Shown here: piece by piece, positions 30,259 to 55,671 of the stretch | Layout: every line of letters begins with the position of its first letter | How positions within the stretch are numbered: position 1 is the first letter of the stretch | Assembly (NCBI GenBank): GCA_025353105.1 | Contig: JANXRG010000094.1 | Coordinates: 1-64,000 of the forward strand | Origin: Verrucomicrobiota bacterium | GTDB lineage: Bacteria > Verrucomicrobiota > Verrucomicrobiia > Chthoniobacterales > SZAS-18 | Reading direction: 5' to 3' | Length of the DNA: 64,000 nucleotides | Made by a program: the position numbers and the translations under genes | Notes under the pieces: model-generated | Database searches by the model: none | What the model saw: only the letters and a program-made list of their open reading frames with translations | What the model was told of the DNA's origin: nothing

Positions 30259-31698
30259 TCACGCCGCCTGCGCCGCCGCCTTTTGATGCGGCGGAAGCAG
30301 GTGCTCAAACGACCGGGCGTAATACTGCAGGACGAGAAGATCCTTCGCGCGGGCGCGGTATCGGCCGTTGTCCTCCTCGAGCAAGTGGCGGAGCGTCAGC
30401 ATGCGGAGGCCCGATTCGAGCGTGTACGAGCGGCTCTGACGCGGGATGTAGAGATGCGCGCCTTGCGCCTTCAGCTGCGCCATGAGCGCGTTGGCGCGCG
30501 ACTTCCATTCGAGGTCGTCAAGCCAGCGATCGCCGGCCTCGACAAACACCGCCGCGACGAGCGCAGCCGGAACCACGGGCACGATCGCCGCCACGGCGGT
30601 CATGAGGTCGCGCGCGAGCGTCCCGACCTTTTCGATTCGGTCCTCGCGCGACATATGCTGAAGGTGAAGGTTTCGCGCCGAGGAGTAATTCCGCAGGGAA
30701 ATCGGCGCGCCGAAGTTCACGACCGCGTAGCCGAAGCGATACCAGCCGCCCCGCAGGCGCAGCCAGACGTTGCGAGCGACAAAACGGATGAAGCCCCGCA
30801 GCGCTTGACCGCGCGAGAGGCGCGGTGCATCGGGATTCAGTTCCGAAAGGAGATTTCGATCCTCCAGGACGCGATCATAATTGACTGCCACCGGAATGAA
30901 GATCAGGTCGCGCGGGCCCTCGGAATCAAACCCACGCACCATGTAATCAAGGAGGCCAAGCTTGGGCGGACGGAGGCGGCCGTCGCGGCTGAGTCCGCCC
31001 TCGGGATAGACAACTTGCACGATGCCGCCCTCGGTCGCCATCTGGACGTAGCGCTCGAGCACGCGGCGATAGAGGGTGTTGCCCGAGCCGCGGCGCACGA
31101 AGAACGCGCCCATCGCGCGGACGAGCTGGCTGACGGGCCACACCTGCGCCCATTCGCCCACCGCGTAGCTCAGTGCGACCTGGTCCGCCGCGAGGTACGC
31201 GAGGAGAATGTAATCCATATTGCTCCGGTGATTCATCACGAAGACGACGCTCGCCTTGGGGTCGATCTTCGAGAGTTCGCCCACGTCGCTCCCACCCAGG
31301 CGCACGCGATAGAACGATCGCGCGATGAACTGTGCGAGCCAAGCGCCGACCCGGAAATAGATATACGGCCGGAACGCAGGCACGGTCTCTCTCGCGTACC
31401 TTTCCACGCGCTTCGAGACGACGGCCTGCGACTCGCCGGTCAAGCGGCGCTCCTCCTCGATCGCGTCGAGCACGCGCGGATCCGACACAAGTCGCCCGAT
31501 CAGTGAGTCGCGCCGCGCCATCTTGTACGTCGGGATGCGGAAGCTGAGCTTCTCGTTGAGCCGCTCGATTAGCCGCTGGGCGCGATTGCGCCAGTACCGG
31601 CGCCAGATGGGCCAGAGCGTGAGCGAAAGGACCGCCCAACTCGCGAGAATCCCGCCCGACCACACGAGCCAGAGCGGAAGCTGGACGGTCTCATTCAT
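30259..31698 (-). CDS. PlsB-like glycerol-3-phosphate acyltransferase
   Basis: 479 residues from ATG 31698. One membrane helix (LPLWLVWSGGILASWAVLSLTLW) anchors the N-terminus. Acyltransferase motifs are NHRSNMD with His157 and Asp162 (HX4D), FVRRGSGNTLYRR, and VYPEGGLSRDGRLRPPKLG, which is close to the PlsB motif EGGRSRTG rather than to PlsC. PlsB acylates sn-glycerol-3-phosphate in phospholipid synthesis. The protein is shorter than E. coli PlsB (about 800) and so belongs to the compact variants. It overlaps the hydrolase stop by 8 bp. Confidence 0.8.
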   Translation of the reverse strand: MNETVQLPLWLVWSGGILASWAVLSLTLWPIWRRYWRNRAQRLIERLNEKLSFRIPTYKMARRDSLIGRLVSDPRVLDAIEEERRLTGESQAVVSKRVERYARETVPAFRPYIYFRVGAWLAQFIARSFYRVRLGGSDVGELSKIDPKASVVFVMNHRSNMDYILLAYLAADQVALSYAVGEWAQVWPVSQLVRAMGAFFVRRGSGNTLYRRVLERYVQMATEGGIVQVVYPEGGLSRDGRLRPPKLGLLDYMVRGFDSEGPRDLIFIPVAVNYDRVLEDRNLLSELNPDAPRLSRGQALRGFIRFVARNVWLRLRGGWYRFGYAVVNFGAPISLRNYSSARNLHLQHMSREDRIEKVGTLARDLMTAVAAIVPVVPAALVAAVFVEAGDRWLDDLEWKSRANALMAQLKAQGAHLYIPRQSRSYTLESGLRMLTLRHLLEEDNGRYRARAKDLLVLQYYARSFEHLLPPHQKAAAQAA

Positions 31699-32380
31699 CG
31701 GAATTTGCGAGCTTGATGGCGTCCTCGCGGTCGAAGCGCCCGTGCTTGAGAAAGTGCACGACCTGATCCTGCACCAACGTCTTGTCCATGATGAACGTGT
31801 GGGTGTACGGCAGCGCGAGGAAGTCCGACATGCCGACAAGTTTTGTCCTTTCGACGGGCACGACGCCGTCGCTGGGCATGGTGGAGATGACAGGGCCGAA
31901 CACCGGGTTGCGGTTCACGGTCCCGGCGATAATTCCGAGCTCGAACTGCGCCGGCCCGAGCCTCGCCGGCAGCGCGCCGGCGTCGGTCCGCATTTGCCCG
32001 GACGCCGGCCCGAGGATCGCGCGCAGCATCCGGCCGAGCAGGGGCGCGCGCAGGTTGTAGAAATCAACGACTTCGGTTCCCTGGTTTGGTGGCGCCAGCA
32101 TCACGACGCGCCCGAGTCGATCGACCTTGTGCTGCTGAAGGTAGGCGCGCACGAGCATGCCGCCCATCGAGTGGGTCACGAAATGGACGGGCAGATCGGT
32201 CTTGGGGGCCCGGGCAAGCGCGCGCCCGATCACGCCGAATGCGAGTGGCTCGATCCGTTCCGTCCGGGACGGATAGTCCGTGTTGTCGACGGTGAATCCT
32301 TCCGCGTTCAGGCGGTGGGCGAGACGGCGCATGGAAAGCGATGTCCGCGCGAGGCCGTGAAGCAATATGATGTGGGACAT
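31691..32380 (-). CDS. Alpha/beta hydrolase, lipase-like
   Basis: 229 residues. The oxyanion region is LLHGLARTSLSM, the nucleophile elbow is THSMGG, the acid lies in PSDGVVPVE and the His in YTHTFIM. The cap region is short, as in small lipases and the EstA/PGAP1-like group. No signal peptide. It shares an operon with the PlsB-like acyltransferase, so a phospholipid or acyl-ester substrate is plausible. Substrate is unknown. Confidence 0.83.
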   Translation of the reverse strand: MSHIILLHGLARTSLSMRRLAHRLNAEGFTVDNTDYPSRTERIEPLAFGVIGRALARAPKTDLPVHFVTHSMGGMLVRAYLQQHKVDRLGRVVMLAPPNQGTEVVDFYNLRAPLLGRMLRAILGPASGQMRTDAGALPARLGPAQFELGIIAGTVNRNPVFGPVISTMPSDGVVPVERTKLVGMSDFLALPYTHTFIMDKTLVQDQVVHFLKHGRFDREDAIKLANSDE

Positions 32381-32400: not shown

Positions 32401-32928
32401 GAATGACGAAGAACGAAACCAGAATGACGAACGAATGACGAAACGGAAGTCCGATGAGGCGGGTGAAGTCGGTTAGCTTTCCGAACGATGCAGTATTGCC
32501 GCGAAAATGAGATTGAGCTCCCGCGCCTCACGCCAGAGAAGCCGAGCTTCCATTTCGATCAACGGATGCGCGCGTACGATCAACCGGAGAAAGTGCTTTG
32601 ATTCTCGGGACTCCTTTCGGCAGGTGCTGATTCGCATCCGAAACTCCTTTTTTGAGCCGGCGACATCCGCCTCGCAATGATTCGCGCCAATACTCGATGA
32701 GCAGCCGACCAGTTGCTCAATCAAGCGCGATCTGAGCGGCGACCGCGGAGCCTTTTTGAGCAGGTCAATGACCGCCTCGCCAAATCGCGCCGTTCGCTCT
32801 TCCAGATCAAACACCCTCTTGGCGCCGGCTGGTTTCTCACGCACGGACCAAGCCAACGGGTCGTCACTTACCACCCGATGCCGTTTCGTCATTCGTTCGG
32901 GCTTCGTCATTCTGGTTTCGTCATTCGG
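32401..32928. mobile_element. Inverted-repeat element carrying the four-helix-bundle gene
   Basis: The left arm at 32401-32446 and the right arm at 32881-32928 are inverted copies made of the words GAATGACGAA, CGAAACCAG and CGAATGACGAAACGG. They differ by two small indels. The four-helix-bundle gene fills the interior, and its start codon plus first residues (MTKPERMTKR) are encoded by the right arm. The unit sits between two minus-strand genes without disrupting either. No transposase is encoded, so mobility would need help from elsewhere. Confidence 0.65.
32473..32910 (-). CDS. Four-helix-bundle protein, 23S rRNA intervening-sequence type
   Basis: About 145 residues from ATG 32910 (32892 also possible). 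The core matches the family first seen in 23S rRNA intervening sequences: VFDLEERTARFGEAVIDLL, LIEQLVGCSSSIGANHCEADVAG, and RKESRESKHFLRLIVRA. Members resemble Avd of diversity-generating retroelements in shape; their function is unknown. The N-terminal residues come from the surrounding inverted repeat, which suggests that gene and repeat move or evolve as a unit. Confidence 0.85.
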   Translation of the reverse strand: MTKPERMTKRHRVVSDDPLAWSVREKPAGAKRVFDLEERTARFGEAVIDLLKKAPRSPLRSRLIEQLVGCSSSIGANHCEADVAGSKKEFRMRISTCRKESRESKHFLRLIVRAHPLIEMEARLLWREARELNLIFAAILHRSES

Positions 32929-32962
32929 AGCGGAGCGATGGACGCTCCAACCGCCCAATGAC

Positions 32963-34807
32963 TCAACTTTCCGCTCCACCGCCCCCCGCGTACATCGCAT
33001 CGATTTCCGACTTGTAACGCTCGAGGGCGATCTTCTTTTTTACCTTCAGTGAAGGCGTGAGTAGTCCGCCGTCAATCGTAAATTCCTCCGGGCAAATGAA
33101 GAATTTCTTGATCGTCTCAAACTTCGCCAGCTTCGTGTTCACGACATCGAGGTCCGCCTGCACCAACTCGCGGACCTTGGCCGACCGGGCGAGATCGGCG
33201 ACGGAACAATCGGCGCCAAGCCCAATCAATGGCAGCGCATCGCGGAGCTTTTCCTTGTCCACGCCGATGAGGGCCGTGGCGTAATTGCGCGTGTCGCCCA
33301 CGACGACGATTTGCGAGACGTATTTTTGCGCCTTCACCATGCCCTCGATGCGCTGCGGCACGATGTACTTGCCGCCGGAGGTCTTGATCAGGTCCTTTTT
33401 CCGGTCGGTGATCTTGAGGTAACCCTCGGGGGTGAATTCGCCGATGTCGCCGGTGTAGAACCAACCGTCCTTGATGGCCTCGGCGGTTGCCTCGGGGCGC
33501 TTGTAATACTCGGAGAACAGCGCCTCACTGCGGATCAGGATCTCACCGTCCCCGGCGATCTTGATTTCGGTGTGCGGGAATGGCTTGCCCACCGTGCCGG
33601 GGATTTGCTTGTCGGCGGGGTTGATGCAGCAGCCCGAGAGTGATTCGGTCAGACCGTAACCCTCCATGATGGTGAGGCCGAGGTTGCGGAGAAAATAGAT
33701 GATCTCCGGCGCGAGCGGCGCGCTGCCGCTGATGAAGAAGCGGAGGCGTCCACCAAACTTCTGCTGGATCTTCGAGAAGACGAGTTTGTGGGCGAGACCC
33801 TGTTTCCAGGTGAGGAAACCGCCCGGGGTTTCGCCGCGATCCCTGGCCGCATTAAACTCGTTCGCGGTCCGCAGCGCCCAATGAAAAATCGCCTGTTTGA
33901 GCCCGGAGCTCGCCGCGACCTGCTTGGTGATGCCCGCGTAGATTTTCTCGAGCACCCGGGGCACGGCGGCCATGATGCTGGGGCGGACGAGTCCGATGTT
34001 GCCCACCAACTTGTCGAGCGATTCGGCGAAGACCATCCGCCAGCCAAAGACCAGGATAAGAAAGGAATCCTGCCGGCCGTAGACGTGCGACAGCGGGAGA
34101 TAGGTGAGAATGGTGTCGCTTTCGCCCAGGTGCGTTCCCAGAAACTCGTGCGCACTCTGGAGATTGCGCGACCAGGCGTACTGCGTGATGACCGCGCCTT
34201 TCGGTTCGCCGGTCGTGCCGGAGGTGTAGATGATCGTGGAAATGTCCTTCGGCGGCTGTTCGCGAATCATGGTCTCGAACGCGGCCGGTTGCGCGTCCCT
34301 TTCGGCTTCACCCTCGCGCAACAGCTCGTCGAACGTGCAAATCTCCGGTCCACCCCTGGCCGCGAGAGCCTTCCGGAGCGACTCCCCGACCGGCGCAAAC
34401 GTGAGGAACAATTTTTGCCGCGGAATCTGGTCGAGAATCTTCAGCACCTTCGCGAACTGCGCCTCGTCCTCGATCACCGCCATGCAGCTCTCGGAATGGT
34501 TGATGATGAATGCGACTTCTTCGGGGAGGTAGCTCGGGTAAACCGGCACGACCACGCCACGCGCGGACTGGATCGCGAGGTCCATGAGATTCCACTCGCG
34601 CCGGGTGCTGCTGAGGATGGCGACTTTTTCCTGCGGTTGGAGTCCGCGCGTGCGCAGCGCCAGCGACAGACGTTCGACTGCGCCGCGATAGTCGGCATAG
34701 GTCCATTCCCGGACGACACCGTTTTCGATCCAGCCGATCGCCAGGCGGGTTTTGGATTTCTCGGTTCGTTCGAGGAAGAGCTGGGGGATGGTGTTCAGGG
34801 AGGACAT
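32963..34807 (-). CDS. Long-chain acyl-CoA synthetase (AMP-dependent)
   Basis: 614 residues from ATG 34807; the frame extends to 34915 without conservation. The adenylate-forming signature is TIIYTSGTTGEPKGAV. Others are LPLSHVYGR, GYGLTESLSGCCIN, the hinge GYLKITDRKKDLIKTSGGKYI and a C-terminal Lys region. It resembles the FadD15/Faa-type group with a long linker. It activates free fatty acids to acyl-CoA for degradation or lipid assembly. Neighbouring lipid genes (PlsB-like, hydrolase) support that. Confidence 0.92.
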   Translation of the reverse strand: MSSLNTIPQLFLERTEKSKTRLAIGWIENGVVREWTYADYRGAVERLSLALRTRGLQPQEKVAILSSTRREWNLMDLAIQSARGVVVPVYPSYLPEEVAFIINHSESCMAVIEDEAQFAKVLKILDQIPRQKLFLTFAPVGESLRKALAARGGPEICTFDELLREGEAERDAQPAAFETMIREQPPKDISTIIYTSGTTGEPKGAVITQYAWSRNLQSAHEFLGTHLGESDTILTYLPLSHVYGRQDSFLILVFGWRMVFAESLDKLVGNIGLVRPSIMAAVPRVLEKIYAGITKQVAASSGLKQAIFHWALRTANEFNAARDRGETPGGFLTWKQGLAHKLVFSKIQQKFGGRLRFFISGSAPLAPEIIYFLRNLGLTIMEGYGLTESLSGCCINPADKQIPGTVGKPFPHTEIKIAGDGEILIRSEALFSEYYKRPEATAEAIKDGWFYTGDIGEFTPEGYLKITDRKKDLIKTSGGKYIVPQRIEGMVKAQKYVSQIVVVGDTRNYATALIGVDKEKLRDALPLIGLGADCSVADLARSAKVRELVQADLDVVNTKLAKFETIKKFFICPEEFTIDGGLLTPSLKVKKKIALERYKSEIDAMYAGGGGAES

Positions 34808-34930
34808 GGCAATGTTGATGACGCCACGGCGTGCACCGGGCGGCGGGAACAAGAAAAGGGGGGAACCCAGCCAACGCGGCAGACTAAAGGGCCGGCGCGA
34901 GACGCGGCAATCCAAATCCCGGGGCGACGC

Positions 34931-52914: not shown

Positions 52915-55671
52915 ATGCGTGCCTTCATTCCTGCCATCGTCAGTCTTGCCCTGGGCGGCTTGCTCTACCCAGTCCACCCCATTTGGGCCCAGACGGCCCC
53001 CTCCGGCACCGTCATTACCATCGTCGGAAACGGAATCGCCGGCTTCTCCGGCGACGGCGGGCCGGCCCTCAACGCGAGCCTAGCTAACCCAGAGGGCGTA
53101 ACCATCGGTCCGGACGGCACTCTTTATTTCTCCGACGCCAGCAATTTTCGCATTCGCGCCCTCTCCCCGGTCACCGGATTCATCACCACCGTCGCCGGCA
53201 ACGGCACGAGCGGCAACACCGGCAATGGCGGACCGGCGGTCGATTCGGCGCTTTCGGGGGTGCCGTCTATCGCCGTGGATCGCGCTCGCCATGCCCTCTA
53301 CATAGTTGACCTCAGCAACAGCTGGATCCGCAAAGTGAACCTCACTACCGGCCTGCTCACCCTCTATGCCGGCTCGGGCGAATTCGGCTTCAGCGGAGAC
53401 GGCGGACCGGCCACGGCGGCCACTTTGAGCTTCCCCTTTGGCGCCGGCACCGATGGCGCGGGCAAGCTTTCCATCGCCGACACCTTCAACGATCGGGTTC
53501 GGCAAGTCGATCCAGTCACCGGCATCATTACGACGATCGCCGGCAACGGCGTGACGGGCTACTCGGGCGACGGTGGACCGGCCACGGCAGCTTCTTTGAA
53601 TACCCCGGAGCAGGCGGGGGCCGATTCCGCCGGCAATGTGTTCGTCTTTCACTACGGCAATGCGAACGGCTACCTCCGTCGCATCGATGCCACCAGCGGC
53701 ATCATCAACACGGTGGCCGGCGGGGGCAACCAGCTCCCTGGCAACGGGCCCGCCACGAGCATGAACCTGCAAAACAGCTACACGCTGGCCGTGGATCCGT
53801 CGGGCACGAAAGTGTACCTCAACGGCGGTGACAGGGTGGGCTTCACGGGCCATCAAGTATTCGTCCTGGACGTCACCACCGGGCAGCTCTCGTTGTTCGC
53901 CGGCACCGCCGTAAACGGGTTCTCCGGCGATGGCGACCCGGCGCTCGCCGCAGAGTTCAGACCCATCGAGGGCCTGGCGCTGGTGCCCGGCGGAGGGTTG
54001 GTCATCGCCGATACGGACAATCAACGCATCCGCTATGTCGCGCCGGATTCCGTCAACCTTTCGGGCGACAGCCAGCAAACGGCATTCTATCTGCCATGGG
54101 TGAGTTCGTTGACTGGGGATTTCATCGTCGCGAATAACCCGAACTTGACGATCGTTAGCGCAGCATCTCTCACGAGTGTGGGTGGCACCGTGAACGCTTC
54201 AGCAAATGCGCTCGTGACGACGGTGAACCTCGGCTCGCTCACGATGGCCGGAGGCAGCGTCAATGTCGACTCCAATTCGGCCGCGACGACAGTGAACATC
54301 GGCTCGCTCACAATGGCCGGAGGCAGCGTCAACGTCGACTTCAATTCGGCCGCGACGACGGTGAACCTCGGCTCGCTCATGACTGCCGGCGGCGCCGTGA
54401 ACGTCAGCGGCAACACAAGCACAACCACGGTTGATCTCGGAAATCTCACAAGTGCGGGCGGCGCCGTGAACGTCAGCGGCAACACAAGTACGACTACCGT
54501 CGGTCTGGGAAGTCTGACGACGGCCAGCGGGAGCGTAAACGTGAGTGGCAACACGTCGGCGACTACAGTCGACCTCAGCTCTTTGACGACTGTCGGTGGC
54601 GGGTCCGGCGCCAAAGCCAATGAGGTGGCCAAAACCGTGGTCGGCAACAGCGGCCCGATGAGTGCCGGTGGCAGCCTGGATGTCAGCGGCAACACCGCGG
54701 CAATGCTTATCAATTTGAGATCCCTGACCACGGTGGTCGGCAATGTCACGATCGCGTCAAACGCCCCGAACGTTTCGGTGAATCTCAACCGCCTAACGAG
54801 CGTGGGCGACGGCATCAACCCGGCGACGATCAGCTTGCAGCGCGGGACGTTTACCTTCGCGGGTGGTCTGAGTGTGGGCCCGCTCGTCTCGCTCACGGGC
54901 GTGGGGACGCTCGCGGGCAATGTTACGAATGCCGGCAAGATTTCCCCCGGTTCGTCGCCCGGGCGCTTTGACATCACGGGCAGCCTCGCCCTCGCGAACA
55001 CCTCCGAGCTGCGCATGGAGATTGGCGGTTTCTCTCCCGCGCAAATCGATTTTCTCAATGTCGCGGGCAACGTCACCCTGGGAGGCGCCCTCATGGTCAG
55101 CCTGATCAATAATTTTCAGGCTCTGATGACAGCTGGCGCGAGTTTTACGCTGCTGGCCAGCGCGAATCCGCTGAGCGGCGCCTTCGCGAATGTGGCTAGC
55201 GGCGGGTCGCTGACCACGACCGATGGCTATGCCCGATTCATGGTGGTCTACGCGGGCGCGAACACCGTGCAACTGACCGGTCTGTTGATCCTGGACACCG
55301 ACGGCGACGGCATGCCCGACTGGTGGGAGGATCAGTTCGGCTTCAACAAGGCAAGCGGCGGAGATGCCGCGCTTGATTCTGATGGCGACGGCATGTCCAA
55401 TCTCGCGGAATTCCGCGCGGGCACGGACCCGCGCAATCCCGCCTCGAGTTTTCGGGTCACCTCGCTTGCGCCGGCCGGTCCGGGGGCGATGATGATCGCG
55501 TGGCAGAGCGTGGCGGGGAAGAATTACACCGTGGAGCGCTCGGTGGATCTGCAGTCATTCGCGACGGTAAGCGGAAGCGTGCCGGCGGCCGGAGCGCAAA
55601 CGAGTTTTACGGATAGCGCGATGCCGGCCGGCGCGCCGAAGATTTTCTATCGCGTTCGGCTGGCTCCGTAG
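52915..55671 (+). CDS. Large secreted NHL/solenoid protein with thrombospondin type-3 motif
   Basis: 918 residues. The signal peptide ends near WA-QT. Residues about 30-380 hold six NHL-like blades of teneurin type (ITTIAGNGVTGYSGDGGPATAASL is typical). Residues 435-570 are at least five 23-residue repeats (TTVNLGSLTMAGGSVNVDSN), probably a beta-solenoid. A passenger-like region follows (SGSLALANTSELRM, LTLLASANPLSGAF), then a calcium motif DTDGDGMPDWWEDQFG and GTDPRNPAS near 795-845 and a beta-sandwich C-terminus. No PEP-type anchor or transporter domain is seen. It is a surface or matrix protein, binding partners unknown. Confidence 0.8.
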   Translation: MRAFIPAIVSLALGGLLYPVHPIWAQTAPSGTVITIVGNGIAGFSGDGGPALNASLANPEGVTIGPDGTLYFSDASNFRIRALSPVTGFITTVAGNGTSGNTGNGGPAVDSALSGVPSIAVDRARHALYIVDLSNSWIRKVNLTTGLLTLYAGSGEFGFSGDGGPATAATLSFPFGAGTDGAGKLSIADTFNDRVRQVDPVTGIITTIAGNGVTGYSGDGGPATAASLNTPEQAGADSAGNVFVFHYGNANGYLRRIDATSGIINTVAGGGNQLPGNGPATSMNLQNSYTLAVDPSGTKVYLNGGDRVGFTGHQVFVLDVTTGQLSLFAGTAVNGFSGDGDPALAAEFRPIEGLALVPGGGLVIADTDNQRIRYVAPDSVNLSGDSQQTAFYLPWVSSLTGDFIVANNPNLTIVSAASLTSVGGTVNASANALVTTVNLGSLTMAGGSVNVDSNSAATTVNIGSLTMAGGSVNVDFNSAATTVNLGSLMTAGGAVNVSGNTSTTTVDLGNLTSAGGAVNVSGNTSTTTVGLGSLTTASGSVNVSGNTSATTVDLSSLTTVGGGSGAKANEVAKTVVGNSGPMSAGGSLDVSGNTAAMLINLRSLTTVVGNVTIASNAPNVSVNLNRLTSVGDGINPATISLQRGTFTFAGGLSVGPLVSLTGVGTLAGNVTNAGKISPGSSPGRFDITGSLALANTSELRMEIGGFSPAQIDFLNVAGNVTLGGALMVSLINNFQALMTAGASFTLLASANPLSGAFANVASGGSLTTTDGYARFMVVYAGANTVQLTGLLILDTDGDGMPDWWEDQFGFNKASGGDAALDSDGDGMSNLAEFRAGTDPRNPASSFRVTSLAPAGPGAMMIAWQSVAGKNYTVERSVDLQSFATVSGSVPAAGAQTSFTDSAMPAGAPKIFYRVRLAP
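54217..54561 (+). repeat. 69-bp tandem coding repeats
   Basis: Five consecutive units of 69 bp (54217, 54286, 54355, 54424, 54493) encode 23-residue repeats. The first three are most alike at DNA level, which suggests recent duplication. Number of units may vary between strains. Confidence 0.8.

Follow-up and report, generated by a model that had tools for sequence, protein, structure and literature searches.

The window analysed here, a stretch of 64,000 nucleotides, is part of contig 63 in a 3.72-Mb draft genome of 121 contigs that is 97.6% complete. A small element (32401..32927, minus strand) occupies the intergenic space between two minus-strand genes. Its center is the IVP/S23 four-helix-bundle gene P0001 (32473..32892, minus strand), identified as an open reading frame and by profiles and a structure model, which encodes 139 amino acids from the ATG at 32892 and has an alternative in-frame ATG at 32910. 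The left arm (32401..32446, plus strand), located 3′ of the gene, is an inverted array of the word GAATGAC/GAATGACGAA. The right arm (32881..32927, minus strand), located 5′ of the gene, carries the same word inverted and contains the start codon. Both arms were defined by arm comparison and word count. The limits of the element were set at the arms, and these boundaries were placed by analogy with empty sites elsewhere. The flanking open reading frames, one alpha/beta-hydrolase-like (31691..32380, minus strand) and one long-chain acyl-CoA synthetase-like (32963..34915, minus strand; both names read from the sequence), lie outside the element. In a genus mate, their matches are on separate contigs, and synteny at this position is not kept in the genus.

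An earlier note on this DNA had described the two arms as closely flanking the gene. This was borne out when 32401-32446 and 32881-32926 were compared in inverted orientation, which gave 76% identity over 46 nt (92% in a core of 25 nt). Each arm contains GAATGACGAA three times. Six copies in the window compare with 0.11 expected by chance, and none was found elsewhere in the window. The same note derived the initial residues of the protein from the repeated words, and both in-frame ATGs (MTKPER.. from 32910 and MTKR.. from 32892) indeed lie inside these words. The relatives L064, L066, L067, and L069 also start with MTKD.. at this word, so this sub-lineage has kept its start codon within the repeat. 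An in-frame ATG inside the arm was present in only 19/102 armed copies, and a start within the repeat is thus not general. Outward of the GAATGACGAA arms in this genome, GGAGCGNAGCGACG was often observed, for example at window positions 32927-32940 and in L002, L003, and L024. The family therefore has a fixed outer motif in addition to the heptamers.

The profile searches placed P0001 above the cut-offs of both TIGR02436 (50.1 bits, cut-off 24) and PF05635 (36.3 bits, cut-off 33.8). Its AlphaFold model contains four helices, with pLDDT values of roughly 90 or higher across the bundle, and the best Foldseek matches of this model were the S23 structures 2rld and 2gsc. The earlier assignment of a four-helix bundle was thereby confirmed. 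The next clear structure matches were Avd proteins of diversity-generating retroelements (DGRs; 4dwl and 8ube), and the homology between PF05635 and Avd has already been remarked on (PMC10053308). A profile built from 27 members matched two PDB entries, 2rld and 2gsc (XCC0516 of Xanthomonas campestris), the latter being a pentamer of four-helix bundles (PMC4990558). Intact IVP orthologs at a chromosomal site in an Akkermansia-like genus (the name is a guess) showed a dN/dS of about 0.1 at 5-11% DNA divergence, which indicates that the protein is kept by purifying selection in this one ortholog set. The gene was truncated in 2/6 orthologs at this site. To our knowledge, the element contains no known recombinase or catalytic motif. 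Phage carriage was rejected, as phage records contained no relatives and viral contigs no relatives of P0001. The named relatives of P0001 suggest that the genome is from Verrucomicrobiota.

The family search found six IVP genes in this genome, and all six were framed by inverted arms. The arm words were GAATGAC (window), GTCGAAA, TTATTGG, GAATGCC, ATTTCAG, and GAAACTC. Every left arm fitted its own right arm better than the other five, and the same was true of the right arms. The comparison was extended to 130 IVP loci from this genome, its genus, and other Verrucomicrobiota, together with eight named loci, one of them from a Deltaproteobacterium. As controls, 177 stretches placed elsewhere in the same loci were used. 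With the scoring and threshold devised for this analysis, which counts a locus as armed from an arm score of 28 upward, 78.5% of the 130 IVP loci were armed, compared to 0.6% of the 177 controls. When arms from different loci were swapped, 0.7% of the pairs scored at least 32 (2.1% if both arms came from one genome). These swap and control tests reject the explanation that the arms are genome-wide repeats independent of the gene. The arms are periodic, with self-match values of 0.62, 0.62, and 0.54 at lags of 7, 14, and 21, respectively, compared to 0.23-0.36 at other lags, and the best lag was 7 in 76/95 arms. Read inward, the arms contain 13% C and 64% A + G. Several of the 28 sub-threshold loci retain weak 7-periodic arms, so truly unarmed members make up about 15-21%.

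Although MAG assemblies are part of the data, complete plasmids and single-contig genomes gave the same picture. All 16 plasmid IVP genes were armed. They came from Cyanobacteriota, Gemmatimonadota (Gemmatirosa), Pseudomonadota (Azospirillum), and Bacteroidota (Riemerella). The Nostoc edaphicum plasmid copy, for example, has the word GTAGGGA and lies between nrdB and nrdA, while the Anabaena copy L181 has the word AGGTGAC and lies between cas6 and cas4. At 3/16 plasmid loci, one control stretch had a raised score because the heptamer arrays extend nearby. The check suggested in the earlier note, whether every member of the family has copy-specific arms, came out positive for the six genes of this genome and the 16 on plasmids, and for about 79% of the 130 loci. 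Members lacking detectable flanking repeats, which that note had listed as evidence against its reading, do exist as the minority estimated above and weaken it only slightly. The observation is also more general than had been guessed, as armed IVP genes occur beyond one genome, in five phyla and each with its own word. This suggests a widespread, little-recognized kind of mobile element.

Arm similarity between genomes climbed with IVP protein identity, from 0.18 (below 20% identity) to 0.40 (60-80%) and 0.93 (above 80%). Over between-genome pairs, the rank correlation between arms and proteins was 0.21, which exceeded all 500 permutations. The word of the window element was also found in the closest relatives of P0001 from other genomes, and IVP genes within one genome shared no words beyond what their protein identity gives. 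Word similarity thus tracks protein identity and not the host genome. This joint travel of word and protein is co-inheritance, which by itself is no proof of recognition.

About ten further positions in the genome carry the arms of the window element, and the family search detected no IVP gene at these positions. Gene-less copies were surveyed in 381 kb of this genome, a sample that was chosen to include contigs with known elements and was not random. It contained inverted heptamer pairs without IVP, typically of 90-210 bp. Twelve such copies were classified: five match the GAAACTC element and three the GAATGAC element of the window, while four match none. The earlier note had counted arms without genes against its reading. 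Such arms do occur, but in 8/12 of these copies the word is that of an IVP element present in the same genome, which is what non-autonomous derivatives would show. Heptamer pairs were absent from 800 kb covering three IVP-free relatives, and two other IVP-bearing genomes contained one gene-less pair each in 400 kb. The abundance of gene-less copies thus varies by host, as they are frequent here and nearly absent in these two genomes. Inverted repeats of two other families, AGGAGCCTGTTGAAATACTGGCATGGCC and AGGTGGAACGCGACCGCGCGTTG, also occur repeatedly in this genome (L217, L221, and L228) and may be ordinary REP repeats of Y1 transposases.

The insertions are located mainly between genes. The genes flanking the element were co-directional in 75/100 cases, compared to a background of 60% (p 0.003), and the element had the same direction as its flanking genes in 61/75. 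Several copies lie between functionally linked genes (nrdB/nrdA, cas6/cas4, and cas10/cmr3). On the cyanobacterial plasmids L181, L189, and L190, IVP elements were observed in CRISPR-Cas operons, twice between cas6 and cas4 and once between cas10 and cmr3. In the predicted RNA fold, both arms of the window element pair along their length (z -3.5), and a second fold prediction with paired arms gave a z of -5.5. The RNA-structured element proposed in the earlier note is compatible with this predicted pairing. The window had no Rfam match, and a known RNA family was therefore rejected.

That note also proposed a mobile unit, and suggested searching close strains for empty sites. Such sites are present in related plasmids. 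The Aulosira element L185 (query 727-1142) has copies with about 80% identity on Trichormus, Scytonema, and Nostoc plasmids. These matches lie in unrelated surroundings, and the similarity ends at the arms. The Aulosira flanks were found without the element in other plasmids, at 91-93% identity. The flanks of L186, the Scytonema copy, were found at about 97.5-97.9% identity on six plasmids that lack the element. The cleanest comparison, with 98% flanks, was that of L186 with the empty L318, which shows an insert of 409 bp. GTAAT occurs a single time in L318 and on both sides of the insert in L186. The clean duplication of 5 bp argues for movement as DNA, with the target cut in a staggered manner. 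Target duplication was clean at this one site only, as the other empty sites were too diverged or rearranged, and in the pairs L181/L317, L182/L199, and L184/L320 the intergenic sequences were too dissimilar to place the junction. Plasmid L319 carries a shortened, broken copy at the L186 site. In L317 (Dolichospermum pUHCC0315a), the flanks of the cas6-cas4 space are 99% identical to those of Anabaena L181, and the space holds no IVP element. It is occupied by about 200 bp of unlike sequence that includes GTTGGGTT as an inverted motif.

Presence/absence polymorphism was also found on a chromosome. At the Akkermansia-like site, many species are empty, with an arm-free intergenic space of 68-78 bp in which a terminator-like hairpin lies. 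An IVP element with AGTTAAT-type arms is present in six species, and three carry a related but distinct IVP type with different words. In L163 (G061), gene-less inverted ATTGACA arms surround a terminator-like hairpin. The common boundaries in different contexts, together with the empty sites, give good support to the proposal of a mobile unit.

The closest known counterpart is the S23p intervening sequence (IVS) of 23S rRNA in Coxiella, Leptospira, and Brucella, which is about 430 nt long and likewise holds an open reading frame of this protein family within inverted arms. In the Coxiella IVS, tandem GACAGAT heptamers precede the S23p reading frame, RNase III cuts at the first repeat, and expression of S23p is considered unlikely (PMC4990558). 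The window element resembles it in having inverted arms with heptameric repeats around an S23 reading frame. Whereas an IVS resides within a 23S rRNA gene (at helix 9, 25, or 45), the window copy sits between two protein genes. It and its relatives further differ in being intergenic and present in many copies, with differing words and gene-less derivatives, and in a protein on which purifying selection acts, as judged from the orthologs tested. Heptanucleotide tandem repeats are similar to the arms in their 7-bp words and intergenic position. They include the cyanobacterial STRRs, GGGAATC in Xanthomonas and GGGGA(C/T)T in Nostoc (PMC4692102), and TAACTGA in Beggiatoaceae (PMC4679880). Their descriptions connect them neither with IVP genes nor with a mobile unit (PMC4692102, PMC4679880). 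Two Xanthomonas genomes contain 70-75 convergent inverted heptamer pairs, and that study reported no general association of heptamer repeats with mobile elements (PMC4692102). Open-access full text, preprints excluded, yielded no description of heptamer arms that are specific to each copy and enclose IVP genes outside rRNA.

We consider it probable that this locus represents a single copy of a small mobile element, about 420-650 bp from end to end, which consists of an inward heptamer array, an IVP/S23 gene, and the same array inverted. The IVP protein, whose solved relatives are pentameric and which has the Avd fold, would recognize its own element by the arms, either at the DNA level or in the folded RNA, and would help the spread of this element and its gene-less derivatives. 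The arms may pair as a long hairpin in the transcript, in which case insertion inside an operon could be tolerated, much like that of the 23S IVS excised by RNase III. The label "non-autonomous" used in the earlier note may not suit the full element, since the IVP protein may assist mobility. We read the 23S intervening sequence as an element of this kind that inserted into rRNA, and the elements described here as its intergenic form. More tentative is the possibility that this four-helix-bundle protein, which is no known transposase or reverse transcriptase, recognizes the heptamer code of its own arms and moves both the element and the gene-less derivatives with the same word. As words diverge along with lineages, many element-protein pairs that do not cross-react would arise. 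These would then form a mobile class not previously recognized, of which the cyanobacterial and xanthomonad heptanucleotide repeats and the 23S IVSs would be parts or remains.

The mover could instead be an ordinary DNA transposase acting in trans on a MITE-like passenger, with the arms as terminal inverted repeats and IVP as cargo that benefits the host or as a hairpin stabilizer only. We regard this as somewhat unlikely, even though the elements are, like MITEs, short, with inverted ends, gene-less copies, and a 5-bp direct duplication that is clean at one site only, the IVP protein has no known catalytic motif, and the genome contains eight Y1 (RAYT-type) transposases. A transposase needs fixed ends, whereas the arm sequence varies from copy to copy. 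In contrast to MITEs, the ends are heptamer arrays that differ per copy, and full copies encode their own conserved protein. The occurrence of armed IVP genes in five phyla and the lack of heptamer pairs in the 800 kb of IVP-free relatives also argue against a passenger. In the RAYT/REP system, small intergenic palindromic repeats likewise spread with a small protein family, but RAYT is a Y1 transposase, whereas the protein here is a four-helix bundle of another family. None of the eight Y1 loci has heptamer arms, and RAYT as a cis-linked mover was therefore rejected. Spread via RNA, in which the transcript hairpin is copied into new sites by a reverse transcriptase acting in trans with IVP as an Avd-like partner, appears unlikely. 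It would fit the fold shared with Avd, the partner of the DGR reverse transcriptase (4dwl, 8ube), the published homology (PMC10053308), the excision of the 23S copy as RNA by RNase III (PMC4990558), and the predominant codirectionality of element and flanking genes. Against it stands the lack of any reverse transcriptase (PF00078) match in this nearly complete genome, which holds many copies. A DGR requires a reverse transcriptase with TR/VR near Avd, and the element is thus not a DGR.

A mainly regulatory role, in which an RNA hairpin between operon genes sets the processing or stability of the message and IVP binds this hairpin, seems distinctly doubtful to us. The excess of co-directional flanking genes, the copies between functionally linked genes, and the predicted RNA folding with paired arms would all agree with it. 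However, the variable presence among close relatives and sites and the truncation of IVP in 2/6 orthologs fit a selfish element better. We give hardly any credence to the explanation that the arrays are simple sequence repeats produced by replication slippage, with IVP genes nearby by chance. Heptameric repeats are over-represented in many genomes (PMC4692102, PMC4679880), but slippage does not flank a single gene family on either side with a shared word in inverted orientation. Nor does it agree with the difference between IVP loci and controls, the failure of swapped arms to match, or the movement of the element as a unit bounded by its arms.

The mobile element favored here brings together three separate observations: the S23/IVP family, which has solved structures and no function, the scattered 23S intervening sequences, and the unexplained heptanucleotide repeats. 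There is a real chance that it represents a new class of mobile element. An S23-encoding IVS was proposed to be a mobile element with an open reading frame for mobility, or its remnant (Ralph and McClelland 1993, as cited in PMC4990558). That proposal now predicts that every IVP protein recognizes its own word and that gene-less copies spread only where the matching IVP protein is present.

Two minor observations concern other parts of the sequence. At 6666-7270 of L228 (G000, contig 110), outward-oriented heptamer arrays enclose an AraC-like regulator gene, which may be located between two gene-less copies. In the window, a 69-bp tandem repeat with about 3-5 copies is located at 54216-54554.
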